From a virus, in the IMG/VR virus record IMGVR_UViG_3300034082_002287, positions 1 through 23,324 of that record: DNA of 23,324 nucleotides; one strand, written 5' to 3'. The translations under genes were made by a program, and so were the position numbers. The notes below the pieces were generated by a model. That model had not been told where the DNA came from and did not search any database. It saw only the letters and a program-made list of their open reading frames with translations. Shown here one piece after another: positions 1,211 through 20,271 of this stretch; within the stretch, counting starts at the first letter, position 1; every line of letters starts with the position of its first letter.

Positions 1211-1483
1211 TTACGACTTCTTAGTAACCTTGGTAGTAGGTTCAGAAATGTTAGAAACGAAACCATTTAAAGCATGTGCCTTAGTGATGATTTCTTGTTC
1301 TGATGGGAATGATGAATATTCTGGCTGATTAGGTAACTGTTGTCCTTGAGTGCGAGCATTCTCGGAAGCTACCTGCCAGTTATTATGTGCAACTTCCCGT
1401 TTAGACATATACTCCTGTTCGAGCATGTCTTTAGAAAGTTTTAGAAGTTCGAGACGGATCTCGAATGGTGTCATGTTACTCAT
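1211..1483 (-). CDS. conserved T4-like phage protein of unknown function
   Basis: 90 aa, MSNMTPFEIRLELLKLSKDMLEQEY..., with a long N-terminal amphipathic helix likely to form a coiled coil, a Gln/Pro-rich middle and a basic tail (TKVTKKS). Proteins starting MTPFEIRLELLKMAKxML are common in T4-like phages of cyanobacteria and SAR11 as I recall, without assigned function. A strong AAGGAG lies 7 nt before the ATG. It is the first gene downstream of the tmRNA, whose coding piece ends only about 30 nt before this start, so the two probably share a primary transcript. Confidence 0.75.
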   Translation of the reverse strand: MSNMTPFEIRLELLKLSKDMLEQEYMSKREVAHNNWQVASENARTQGQQLPNQPEYSSFPSEQEIITKAHALNGFVSNISEPTTKVTKKS

Positions 1484-1561
1484 ATTTTTCTCCTTGTGTG
1501 ATGAGTGTAGTGTAGTTGGTTATTCTGTTACGAGGAAACCAACTGAAACCCTAGTCAGCGT

Positions 1562-1594
1562 TTAGGCTGCCAATGCGAACTTTTCATCGTTTGC
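1562..1594 (-). other. tmRNA tag-peptide reading frame (ANDEKFALAA)
   Basis: Codons GCA AAC GAT GAA AAG TTC GCA TTG GCA GCC TAA run from 1594 to 1562 and encode the complete degradation tag after the alanine delivered by charged tmRNA. The C-terminal LAA is the ClpX/ClpA recognition end. The E. coli tag is ANDENYALAA; the KF variant is close to ANDERFALAA tags remembered from betaproteobacteria. Confidence 0.93.
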
Positions 1595-1678
1595 AGTTAT
1601 TTTTGTTTTAGTGTTAACGTCAACTCTGACGAGTAGCCAATTTTTGTACTTGTTGCCTTGTCGAAACTAGTCAAGCCC

Positions 1679-1764
1679 ATCATAAGAATTTTGGTTTAGA
1701 TTATCTGGATGTCCGTGATCCCTTAGTCATCTTCATTATCGCACGGCGCAGACCTAAATTCTTA
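1679..1764 (-). other. tmRNA intervening segment with terminal inverted repeat
   Basis: The 86 nt between the encoded CCA and the mature 5' G are bounded by an inverted repeat. CATAAGAATTT at the start pairs with AAATTCTTATG at the end. The pairing continues the acceptor stem across a 2x2 internal loop, so precursor ends would be held in one long helix for RNase P and 3' processing. Permuted bacterial tmRNA precursors have such a removable segment. Confidence 0.8.
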
Positions 1765-1829
1765 TGGTGGACTTGGGGGGATTCGCACCCCCGTCCAAAA
1801 CACTTTTCAAAAAATCAGTTTACTACCAT

Positions 1830-2108
1830 TCATTCTGTTGTTGGTAATACAGTTTCTACTATTTCCATGATAACCAATTCAGGAATTTCAGGAATAGTGT
1901 GTTCAATACCCAATGTTTTGAGAATATCGATTTCCGGATTAATGAAAACATCATCAGCGGAAAGTTCAGTTACTTTTTCAGAAACAAATGCAATCAATTC
2001 TTGTCCTGTTAAACCATCGGGATTAGAAATGTTGGTATAATTCGTTGTTCTGTATTCCACTTTAATTGTAGAATCTTCATTTACTTTGATAAATTGAAAG
2101 TCGTTCAT
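1830..2108 (-). CDS. hypothetical acidic phage protein
   Basis: 92 aa, MNDFQFIKVNEDSTIKVEYRTTNYT..., acidic and rich in beta-prone residues, with no membrane segment. I do not recognise a domain. The start has no Shine-Dalgarno (only A-rich sequence upstream), like the structural gene before it, 23 nt away. Its stop (1832-1830) abuts the acceptor piece of the tmRNA, so the mRNA 3' end and the RNA gene overlap or touch. Position behind a virion-like gene suggests late expression or a structural or assembly role; this is contextual only. Confidence 0.65.
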   Translation of the reverse strand: MNDFQFIKVNEDSTIKVEYRTTNYTNISNPDGLTGQELIAFVSEKVTELSADDVFINPEIDILKTLGIEHTIPEIPELVIMEIVETVLPTTE

Positions 2109-17128: not shown

Positions 17129-17599
17129 TTAAGCAGCTAACAACATTTTCATGCGGTCAGCTGCATATGAAGCCGCAAATGCTCCTGGTTTAACCAAAGG
17201 TGTCACGTTACATGTACCTTTAATATAACCAATTGCCTGTTGTACGACACAAGAACTTCCATACATTTCGTTTGGATTAATGTCTAAGTGTACCTCAACA
17301 ATGCGGTCTTCTAATACTTCTTTAAGTCTCTGAAACAACTCAGAGACTTTATATACTTCATTCATCAAGCGCATTGAAGGCTTGTTTTTTCTTTGGTCAT
17401 AGTCTCTCTCTCTTTGAACTTCTCCAAAGATTTTGCAACCATGACAACCATCAATATGCACAACAACAGCAAGCGTATAATCTGCAAACCAAATGCCCCC
17501 AACTTTAAAACGTTCTGAGTCTGCACCAATGTAAATTTTGGTTTGTGGTGATTGAACATCTATAAATGCCTTCACTTCTGCAATGTCTATATGTTTCAT
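17129..17599 (-). CDS. YkuK-type RNase H-fold protein (DUF458-like)
   Basis: 156 aa. KIYIGADSERF (21-31) with D27, WFADYTLAVVVHIDG, a later R-L-M-N-E81 helix, VEVHLDINPN (101-110) with D106, then AIGYIKGT and the end KPGAFAASYAADRM with D148. The D-E-D-D order matches the RNase H-like fold of the YkuK/DUF458 family. That family's substrate is not established as far as I know. It is embedded between tRNA-Cys and tRNA-Ser, with ribosome site AGGAAG a few nt upstream. A role in tRNA or other RNA processing or decay is attractive given the location but is inference. Confidence 0.75.
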   Translation of the reverse strand: MKHIDIAEVKAFIDVQSPQTKIYIGADSERFKVGGIWFADYTLAVVVHIDGCHGCKIFGEVQRERDYDQRKNKPSMRLMNEVYKVSELFQRLKEVLEDRIVEVHLDINPNEMYGSSCVVQQAIGYIKGTCNVTPLVKPGAFAASYAADRMKMLLAA

Positions 17600-18821: not shown

Positions 18822-19026
18822 ATTGCTCTGCATTCCTCGGCGGTAATTATAGTACAAAAAGATATGACGCTATCATACCCCTCACACGTACCTTCCACCC
18901 GCTTCCCGACAGGAACCGTTAACGCATTGCCAGCGGCCTTTTGGTTTAAAGACTACCACCCGTAAGTTACGAACTTACTTCACTTCCTGTGGGTCACAGT
19001 AGCTAAGCGTTACCCTAGCTGGATTC
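18822..19026 (-). ncRNA. 205-nt structured segment between tRNA-Tyr and tRNA-Ala, no gene
   Basis: No open frame of note and no tRNA. On the minus strand it holds several hairpins: GCTA/TAGC near the start, GTAAGTT-CGT-AACTTAC (7 bp) nested in a GACCCAC/GTGG..GTC helix, and TATGA/TCATA near the end. It is GC-richer than its surroundings and more structured than an ordinary spacer. TATAAT occurs close to its 3' end without a good -35. It may be a small RNA processed with the tRNAs. No known RNA family recognised. Confidence 0.45.
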
Positions 19027-19278: not shown

Positions 19279-19350
19279 TGGTGGGTGGGAGTGAGAGTCG
19301 AACTCACATTTCAGGGGACCTGATTCTAACCAATTGAAATATCCCAACCC
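19279..19350 (-). pseudogene. tRNA with truncated anticodon arm (pseudo-tRNA)
   Basis: A good T arm (GTGAG-TTCGACT-CTCAC), encoded CCA and a D-arm-like segment (TTTCAATTGGTTAGAAT) are present. The anticodon region is only TCAGG-TCC-CCTGA, a 3-nt loop where 7 are needed; about 8 nt are missing before the T stem. The acceptor GGGTTGG/CCCACCC has a mismatch. No anticodon can be assigned. Spacing fits the array, so the unit is probably a decayed tRNA still transcribed with the others. Confidence 0.7.
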
Positions 19351-19427: not shown

Positions 19428-19433
19428 ATAATA

Positions 19434-19525
19434 CCATATAGAAGCAATCTTGTTTGGATTCGAACCTTGTTCTAGTATTGTCTATCTGCGCTTCCCACAG
19501 TGCTGACAAGAATGCTTTTATATGG
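19434..19525 (-). other. tRNA-like element enclosed by a long imperfect stem
   Basis: Minus strand: CCATATA and AAGCATTCTTGT at the left pair with ACAAGATTGCTT and TATATGG at the right, about 18 bp with two mismatches. Inside are a T-loop motif (GGTTCGAATCC) and a D-arm-like AGCACTGTGGGAAG, but no proper anticodon arm and no CCA of its own. The left arm includes the CCA end of tRNA-Lys. It is either a decayed tRNA or a processing structure. Confidence 0.5.
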
Positions 19526-19597
19526 TAGAGGCACAGAGAATCGAACTCTGATTTACTGGTTAAAAGCCAGTTACTTTAACCGTTAAGTTATACCTCC
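19523..19597 (-). tRNA. tRNA-Lys(TTT)
   Basis: GGAGGTA/TGCCTCT acceptor, anticodon loop CTTTTAA in ACTGG/CCAGT, T arm CAGAG/CTCTG, CCA encoded. Its first 10 nt double as the last codons and stop of the 43-aa gene. Reads AAA/AAG. Confidence 0.95.
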
Positions 19598-19719
19598 ACA
19601 GGTATTTGTTTTTGTGCTTTACGCATTGCCTTATTAGACTTGCGATGAGCACCTGCTTTACGGAATAAAGCCAAACGAACGAAGCAGTTACGTTCCTTGG
19701 CGATTGATTTTCGCTTCAT
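19588..19719 (-). CDS. 43-aa basic protein overlapping tRNA-Lys
   Basis: 43 aa, MKRKSIAKERNCFVRLALFRKAGAHRKSNKAMRKAQKQIPVEV, about one third Arg+Lys. AAGGAAAG directly before the ATG at 19719 is a strong ribosome site. The pattern RNxFVxLALFRKAGxHxKxxKAxRRxxK is a small basic protein I recall in many phages, often beside tRNA genes, with no known function. The C-terminal PVEV-stop is written in the first nucleotides of tRNA-Lys, so processing of the tRNA would destroy the mRNA end. The charge suggests RNA binding. Confidence 0.75.
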   Translation of the reverse strand: MKRKSIAKERNCFVRLALFRKAGAHRKSNKAMRKAQKQIPVEV

Positions 19720-19736
19720 AACTTTCCTTAAAAAAA

Positions 19737-19814
19737 TGGCAGAGGATACTGGATTCGAACCAGTGATAACGGAGTCAAAGTCCGCTGCTTTAGGCCAGAC
19801 TAAGCTAATCCCCA
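19737..19814 (-). tRNA. tRNA-Gln(TTG)
   Basis: Acceptor TGGGGAT with ATCCTCT (weak T1-T72 end, as glutamine tRNAs favour an open first pair), discriminator G, anticodon loop CTTTGAC in GCGGA/TCCGT, T arm ACTGG/CCAGT, CCA encoded. Reads CAA/CAG. Confidence 0.93.
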
Positions 19815-19821
19815 ACAATAT

Positions 19822-20021
19822 TACCATAATAAAATTTACTGCGAACCATTCACACCTACTTTTCACAGGCTGCGATCCTGCGCTGTGTGCGGTCATTACG
19901 TACAAGCTATCCATCACCATCGTAGCGGCTATCATGAGTATACCTAAACCGGAGACCGCCGTCCCGTTATTTGGTATAGTCCCCTAATGGACTTGTCAAC
20001 GCAATAAATTTTATTATGGTA
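19822..20021 (-). ncRNA. structured RNA segment with 17-bp terminal inverted repeat
   Basis: TACCATAATAAAATTTA (reverse-complement arm at 20005-20021) and its perfect 17-bp partner at 19822-19838 enclose about 166 nt, extended by 4 further pairs after one mismatch. Inside, the minus strand has AGTCC/GGACT, TATACC/GGTATA enclosing AACGG..CCGGTT and GAC-GGCG-GTC, and CACAG/CTGTG hairpins. One arm contains the CCA of tRNA-Glu. No open frame or intact tRNA. Looks like a folded RNA co-transcribed with the tRNAs; family unknown. Confidence 0.55.
19973..19999 (-). promoter_or_regulatory. possible internal promoter in the structured segment
   Basis: TTGACAAG (-35 at 19994-19999) is followed after 15 nt by TATACC (19973-19978). 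The context resembles the phage's other promoters, but spacing is short and the -10 is imperfect. Confidence 0.3.
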
Positions 20022-20092
20022 CTCGGCACGGGAATCGAACCCGTCTTTCCAGCGTGAAAGGCTAGCGTCCTAAACCGATAGACGAGCCGAGC
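20017..20092 (-). tRNA. tRNA-Glu(TTC)
   Basis: GCTCGGC/GCCGAGT acceptor, anticodon loop CTTTCAC in CTAGC/GCTGG, T arm ACGGG/CCCGT, CCA encoded. First tRNA of the array after the boxA-like leader. Reads GAA/GAG. Confidence 0.95.
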
Positions 20093-20107: not shown

Positions 20108-20170
20108 ATTGTTAAAGAACATACTCTACACGTAAATACGAATAGAATTTTTTTGATTGATTTCTCAATC
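20108..20170 (-). promoter_or_regulatory. rrn-like antitermination leader: boxB hairpin then boxA
   Basis: Minus strand GATTGA-GAAA-TCAATC (20155-20170) forms a 6-bp GNRA-capped hairpin. After 34 nt comes GTTCTTTAACAAT (20108-20120), matching the rrn boxA core (E. coli TGCTCTTTAACAA). The order boxB then boxA is that of bacterial rRNA leaders, where NusB/S10 load antitermination factors. It lies between the promoter and the first tRNA. Confidence 0.7.
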
Positions 20171-20179
20171 CATACATGA

Positions 20180-20207
20180 ATTGTAACACAACCACGTATT
20201 TTGGCAA
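20180..20207 (-). promoter_or_regulatory. sigma70-type promoter of the tRNA array
   Basis: Minus strand: TTGCCA (20202-20207), 16-nt spacer, TACAAT (20180-20185). It follows an intrinsic terminator and precedes the boxB/boxA leader and tRNA-Glu by about 85 nt. Confidence 0.7.
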
Positions 20208-20237: not shown

Positions 20238-20271
20238 CAAAAAACCCCAAACTTTTTAGGTTTGGGGTTTT
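20238..20271 (-). terminator. rho-independent terminator (bidirectional)
   Basis: CCCCAAAC/GTTTGGGG, 8 bp with a 7-nt loop, extended by A/T pairs and followed by TTTTTTG on the minus strand and TTTTG on the plus strand. It ends the metallophosphoesterase transcript and isolates the tRNA array. Confidence 0.9.

Follow-up and report, generated by a model that had tools for sequence, protein, structure and literature searches.

The window, by which is meant the whole stretch of 23,324 bases that was analysed, is the record of an uncultured bacterial virus of lake type, with a T4-type RNase H that has ~50% identity to those of Methylophilales phage Melnitz and the Synechococcus phages S-CAM1 and S-CAM3. 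It carries 23 tRNA genes at 16.7-20.1 kb, all of which are on the minus strand, and directly behind the first of these, tRNA-Glu (UUC), lies the element under study (Table 1). A boxA-like site ~95 nt upstream of the element is found in 40 of 68 relatives and in only 41 of 1360 random windows (3%), and from its motifs (promoter-like sequence, boxA-like site, tRNA-Glu) the head of the array appears to resemble that of rRNA operons.

Table 1. Features around the head of the tRNA array (positions in the window)
Feature	Position	Strand	Basis or remark
Terminator-like hairpin between the array and the upstream gene	20241..20271	-	
Promoter-like TTGCCA-16-TACAAT, upstream of the boxA-like site	20180..20207	-	Consensus match only
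boxA-like TTCTTTAACA, upstream of tRNA-Glu	20110..20119	-	
tRNA-Glu (UUC), encoded CCA, first tRNA of the array	20017..20092	-	
Whole element, structured RNA of the R1 family	19822..20021	-	Inverted repeat, fold z -4.5, cmsearch, absent from Rfam
Terminal stem, 5' strand; bases 20021-20017 are U72-A73-C74-C75-A76 of tRNA-Glu	20000..20021	-	
Terminal stem, 3' strand, ending ...UAUGGUA	19822..19843	-	Inverted-repeat search
Inner helix ACAAG/CUUGU (19996-19992 with 19906-19902)	within 19902..19996	-	R1 alignment, pair table
Inner helix UCCAU/AUGGA (19991-19987 with 19914-19910)	within 19902..19996	-	R1 alignment, pair table
Helix UAUACC/GGUAUA (19978-19973 with 19944-19939), at the site of the family's third helix	19939..19978	-	
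GUAAUG segment, conserved	19894..19899	-	R1 alignment
tRNA-Gln (UUG), next tRNA; starts 7 nt beyond the element stem	19737..19814	-	
tRNA-Lys (UUU), CCA within the K-type stem	19523..19597	-	
Second element, K-type; 22-bp stem, 91% complementary, starting with UACCA of tRNA-Lys	19432..19527	-	

The preliminary description of this DNA had placed a perfect 17-bp inverted repeat around the element, with the CCA of tRNA-Glu in one arm, and had stated that the enclosed sequence lacks an open frame and differs in composition from its surroundings. The repeat, TACCATAATAAAATTTA and its exact complement, is indeed present, and ~0.001 perfect 17-bp repeats with a gap of up to 300 nt would be expected in a window of such composition. 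The arms reach 22 nt, of which 21 are paired (95% complementary, one mismatch), and the CCA is within the arm as claimed; as the arm starts at U72 of tRNA-Glu and runs on through A73-C74-C75-A76, the stem includes slightly more than the CCA. A 204-nt transcript of the element is predicted to fold at -68.4 kcal/mol, compared with -50.6 +/- 3.95 for shuffled sequences (z = -4.5, 0 of 200 shuffles). The lack of an open frame has to be given up in its literal form, with mechanical ORFs crossing the element at 19588-19935 (-) and 19697-19987 (+), both of which also traverse tRNA-Gln and are without support as genes. With regard to composition, the GC content of the interior (49%) is higher than the window mean (38%), but it is about the same as that of the tRNA array (47%), and thus composition alone is no sign of foreign origin. 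Neither ARAGORN nor RF00005 gave a match to the element, so that neither a tRNA nor a degenerate tRNA was detected.

A number of further features were observed in the window. A tmRNA gene at 1471-1885 (-) has its best match to the permuted tmRNA model RF04321 (138 bits) along with a match to beta_tmRNA (RF01850), and ARAGORN gives its tag as ANDEKFALAA; aquatic phages are known to have tmRNAs in two pieces (PMC9004378). Within the tRNA array there is a probable further structured RNA at 18822-19026 (-; fold z -2.1), between tRNA-Tyr and tRNA-Ala, which is 89% identical in contig L034, where it lies between tRNA-Asn and tRNA-Ala, and 88% identical in L005; ends similar to those of this RNA (CCGCC..GG..GCAGAGCA) are found ahead of hairpins in L087, L093 and L168. 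A tRNA-like sequence at 19283-19349 (-) has good T and acceptor arms without a normal anticodon arm, was missed by ARAGORN and matches tRNA-Sec only weakly (24 bits, with a gathering threshold of 47). The array also contains a gene for an RNase H-like protein (PF04308) at 17129-17599 (-) and, between the Gln and Lys tRNAs, a basic ORF of 43 codons (MKRKSIAKERNCF..., 19588-19719, -) that has no Pfam match.

The R1 family

Several elements behind tRNA-Glu have in common an interior of 215-270 nt with ATTRGGTTNNCAA..CNAGTAGGT and GTAATGTG. This family, termed R1, has an elaborate conserved core with invariant bases. A scan that used the interior motif only found 95 stretches, equivalent to 72 distinct RNAs, and 72 of the 72 are closed by a long stem. 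tRNA-Glu is located directly 5' of 62 of them, 54 being assigned automatically and 8 after tRNA calls that were truncated or shifted had been inspected; one more is behind tRNA-Gln and the other nine open an array, with a tRNA or another element following on their 3' side. In the members that are not behind a tRNA, CUA often takes the place of CCA and the partner is altered to match (C-G to U-A, 5 of 44).

An alignment of 44 relatives, from which the window was left out, supports 57 pairs in 8 helices, with 96.1% of cells paired. Double-sided changes were found in 409 cells compared with 119 in shuffles (0.485 against 0.189), none of 500 shuffles matched the alignment on any measure and slid controls dropped to 21-68. 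The terminal stem of R1 has 69 G.U pairs against 3 A.C pairs (p = 3e-17), so that it is the RNA of the tRNA strand that is under selection. The near relatives L004-L006 are 98-100% identical to the window over the whole region and, being too similar, are uninformative on covariation.

Having proposed that the element may be an unknown phage small RNA, the preliminary description named covariation among homologues and recovery by a covariance model made from relatives as ways of checking this. Both checks came out in its favour: covariation among the 44 relatives is very strong, and a model (R1) built from those relatives without the window recovers the held-out element at 19823-20020 (-) over its full length (model 1-230) with 75 bits and an E-value of 2.1e-21, whilst sisters that have only the arms in common and carry other interiors score ~30 bits. 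An unknown structured phage RNA is therefore supported. At the pair 19987-19914 a compensatory change has given the window U-A in place of the G-C of all 44 training sequences, and on our reading of the alignment there are double changes at two pairs invariant in the training set, from G-C to C-G beside the terminal stem and from G-C to U-A in helix 3.

Searches of Rfam 15 returned no match for the window element, either at the gathering threshold or up to E = 10, and none for a relative, and a DNA-similarity search of the element in cultured phages gave nothing meaningful. A match of R1 to Salmonella phage Melville (L297 6864-6967) has 15.9 bits and was discarded as too weak to count. By the comparative evidence the window element is thus a member of a previously undescribed, evolutionarily conserved family of structured RNAs, with no expression shown for any member. 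All counts of families and elements given here are from environmental contigs that have common ancestry.

Stems that take in the CCA

The association of such stems with particular tRNAs was analysed in 80 viral loci that were fetched via the neighbouring metallophosphoesterase, with the element itself not used, and 3 of the 80 carry the window element (98-100% identity). At each tRNA 3' end these loci were scanned for the reverse complement of N73-CCA plus 11 nt. The result is bimodal, with 20 tRNAs having at most 2 mismatches in 15, none having 3 and the rest having 4 or more as in the shuffled control, and all 20 of the low-mismatch tRNAs are tRNA-Glu, -Lys or -Gln. When a fixed pairing threshold is applied to these element-blind loci a stem is found at 14 of 24 tRNAs with a UUN anticodon and at 0 of 138 others (Fisher p = 3.6e-14), a value that overstates the certainty as related phages are not independent. 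The same bias is apparent in two further sets that were fetched differently (112/235 UUN tRNAs against 49/1506 others, and 83/162 against 15/945), and about half of UUN tRNAs have no element. A weak 1-72 pair (U72) was considered as the cause of the bias and rejected, with stems at 5 of 483 non-UUN tRNAs that have U72 and at 23 of 40 UUN tRNAs that have C72. Matches to tRNA-Lys(CUU) in the first scan proved to be artefacts in which the pairing spanned the next tRNA-Lys(UUU), and were left out of the set of elements described below. Five cultured phages with tRNA arrays had no CCA-anchored stem at their UUN tRNAs.

In total 264 tRNA-anchored elements were found in the fetched contigs, with interiors that fall into 121 clusters. 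Their stem is mostly 19-22 bp when counted from tRNA position 72, and the fraction of elements paired is 0.78 at position 73, 0.68 at 72 and 0.31 at 71, so that the pairing has a sharp end within the acceptor stem. What the elements share is thus an RNA stem of two turns in which the 3' end of the tRNA is included, and the interiors are exchangeable under this common stem. Elements that are 5' of a tRNA, or in tandem, hold no CCA. Hairpin elements in direct tandem were seen in L086, L122, L135 and L194, and in L086, L129, L132 and L193 a small RNA ending ..GAGGACCGGGATTCC..CAGCAACACTG(N)CCA, which is not a recognised tRNA, carries CCA-anchored elements.

A distinct group, the K-type elements, is represented in the window by the element behind tRNA-Lys, which encloses ~52 nt with a T-arm-like GGUUCGAAUCC and ends just ahead of tRNA-His; the preliminary description of the tRNA-Glu element makes no mention of it. 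The pattern of the commonest arm occurs in at least 120 stretches in viral contigs, and in 97 distinct matches listed the CCA belongs to a tRNA, with Lys(UUU) (60) and Gln (14) the most frequent. The arm sequence CCATATAAAAACACATT..AGTGTGTTTCTATATGG is conserved, within a consensus of CCAUAUAAAAACACAUU...AGUGUGUUUCUAUAUGG that has a conserved A.C mismatch at pair 8 and, at pair 16, a U.G that alternates with U-A and C-G; the GG of the 3' arm often serves also as bases 1 and 2 of the tRNA that follows. The K-arm pattern had only two matches in 84,980 bacterial and archaeal genomes (L204 and L205, both Lachnospiraceae), which is near chance, and a query of 50,697 phage records with the K-type consensus gave no two-armed match, only chance matches to a single arm.

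Identical or near-identical K-type interiors are found behind different tRNAs and in unrelated flanks (L117/L184/L145/L203, L010/L192, L166/L193 and L097/L134), which is evidence that K-type elements move between sites, and the outer arms around identical interiors differ yet stay complementary. The suggestion in the preliminary description that the window element may be an inserted one therefore holds in part for its K-type sisters, but not for the R1 family, which is nearly always beside tRNA-Glu.

Possible functions of the elements

The comparisons above show a conserved RNA structure on the tRNA strand, with a stem of ~20-22 bp that includes the tRNA 3' end, and its concentration at UUN tRNAs, those for Glu, Lys and Gln. 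What this structure does for the phage can only be inferred, and the reading we favour, with a probability just short of even, is an RNase III-gated 3' maturation of UUN tRNAs combined with release of the enclosed RNA, in which expression, cleavage and function are all inferences. It corresponds to the processing scaffold that was among the options of the preliminary description. A structured RNA of ~200 nt would be transcribed within a tRNA operon that has an rrn-like head, and the closed stem, about two turns of dsRNA with U72-A73-CCA as the outermost pairs, may keep the CCA out of reach of trimming and charging. The stem would then be opened by a dsRNA-specific cut, for which host RNase III is the most likely enzyme by analogy with the stems that bracket 16S and 23S rRNA, and the cut would free the enclosed RNA, after which exonucleases could finish the tRNA. 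The element would thereby gate maturation of UUN tRNAs and yield, as a separate product, a stable RNA of unknown role. A role for RNase III is inferred from this analogy and from stem length alone, without cleavage data: stems processed by RNase III have about two turns or more of dsRNA, which the 22 bp of the window element meet. The search of 18 long records revealed no phage-encoded RNase III or dsRNA-binding domain, which would leave the cut to an enzyme of the host. Taken alone, maturation gated by RNase III explains neither the choice of UUN tRNAs nor the UUN tRNAs that have no element; if it is right, the mechanism would be of a known kind in a new setting.

It is possible, if on balance unlikely, that the elements are a maturation lock or a counter-defence made of RNA, with exchangeable 3' modules, more than 100 of them on one stem, that control or shield the UUN tRNAs by locking their CCA, these being the tRNAs most exposed to anticodon nucleases specific for U. 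A further and rather improbable proposal is that they guard, hold in reserve or mimic tRNAs that are cut by U-specific host defences. The tRNAs marked by elements, and with them the UUN enrichment, coincide with targets of Cas13a, RloC and PrrC: LshCas13a cleaves tRNAs Lys UUU, Glu UUC, Gln UUG and Thr UGU (PMC11042736), RloC has tRNA-Glu as its preferred target, ahead of Lys and further tRNAs, and PrrC cuts Lys (PMC2610378). However, the interiors show no enrichment of mimics of an anticodon loop (21, where 29.8 are expected), it is unclear how pairing of the CCA would protect an anticodon, and 18 records had no match to T4 RNA ligase 1, albeit in a search without a positive control.

The exchange of K-type interiors between unrelated flanks, together with the conserved K-type arm, also allows for a mobile DNA palindrome, MITE- or attC-like, with tRNA 3' ends as its target, in which case RNA structure would be incidental. 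We consider this unlikely: the excess of G.U over A.C in the R1 stem shows selection at the level of RNA, R1 keeps overwhelmingly to one tRNA, and arms that differ around identical K-type interiors remain complementary. Furthermore, no tyrosine recombinase was detected in 18 long element-bearing records in which positive controls were detected, with the caveat that the window record is only 23 kb.

The elaborate core of R1 with its invariant bases, and a location immediately 3' of tRNAs, which theta ribozymes share (PMC10879173), raise the question of whether the conserved interior acts as a ribozyme, cleaving either its own stem or the 3' end of the tRNA, an activity that has been proposed for those ribozymes. 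We regard this as doubtful, given that no Rfam ribozyme matched even at E 10 and that the topology is a closed long hairpin and not an HDV-like nested pseudoknot. Moreover, the same stem is found around more than 100 unrelated interiors, and a common catalytic core therefore cannot be the shared feature.

UUN tRNAs carry a 5-substituted 2-thiouridine as their wobble base. The specificity of the stems coincides with these tRNAs, and the pairing of CCA with UGG resembles the NCCA-UGGN contact of a T-box, so that a checkpoint could be imagined in which the clamp delays charging until U34 is modified, or a regulatory RNA that senses tRNA-Glu. There is little to recommend it, as no regulated gene is apparent downstream in the sequence and no T-box model in Rfam matches. 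A chance hairpin or drifting spacer, for which the near-identity of L004-L006 alone would prove nothing either way, is to be dismissed, being already refuted by the covariation in 44 relatives and at odds also with the fold z, the held-out match of R1, the UUN enrichment and the expected frequency of the repeat. Among the mechanisms set out here the sequence itself decides for none.

To our knowledge phage tRNAs have been known for more than 50 years without their function being agreed on. That a large set of freshwater phages ties structured RNA to the CCA end almost only at Glu, Lys and Gln tRNAs raises the question of why these three differ, be it through anticodon-nuclease defence, modification of U34 or a timed maturation.

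Comparison with known systems

The theta ribozymes described by Kienbeck et al. (2024) in gut phages have an HDV fold and cleave at the tRNA 3' end (PMC10879173). Like the elements reported here they are structured RNAs directly 3' of phage tRNAs, number in the hundreds in metagenomic phages and have a proposed role in 3' processing (PMC10879173). Only 4.5% of theta-associated tRNAs encode the CCA (PMC10879173), whereas in the present elements the CCA is encoded and is paired in a 20-22-bp stem, the phages are of freshwater type, the tRNAs are UUN tRNAs and there are many unrelated interiors; no match to the HDV models of Rfam was found up to E 10.

The RNase III stems of rRNA operons, and the intervening sequences of 23S rRNA, are alike in having a long stem that brackets structured RNA in a boxA-led stable-RNA transcript, and in conserving stem length around variable interiors. 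They differ in that the element is without rRNA, its stem incorporates the CCA of a tRNA and its cleavage by RNase III is only inferred. GOLLD and ROOL (RF02032; PMC12286853) are likewise large structured phage RNAs in or near tRNA islands, but they are 400-800 nt with other folds, and the element has no Rfam match to either. A GOLLD RNA (RF02032, 198 bits) was observed in a related tRNA array, at 4094-4554 of L010, overlapping a tRNA-Thr call.

With integron attC sites and other palindromic mobile elements only the K-type can be compared, in its folded inverted repeats, conserved ends, variable centres and exchange of context; the differences are that no recombinase was found in the 18 long records, that there is covariation at the level of RNA and that an attC core is missing. 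In contrast to a T-box, the element is followed by tRNA-Gln and not by a regulated gene, and has no match in Rfam. The stable RNAs C and D of T4 are non-tRNA RNAs within the tRNA array of T4-like phages. The element is similarly a non-tRNA RNA inside a tRNA array. In the T4-like array of HMD-9 (L295), none of the tRNAs has a CCA-anchored stem, and R1 gave no match. In the open-access literature, to which this comparison is restricted, none of theta ribozymes, GOLLD/ROOL, rRNA stems or T4 RNAs C and D has a stem built with the CCA or a UUN bias, and as far as that literature allows it to be tested the RNA family, the embedding of the CCA and the bias towards UUN tRNAs are new.
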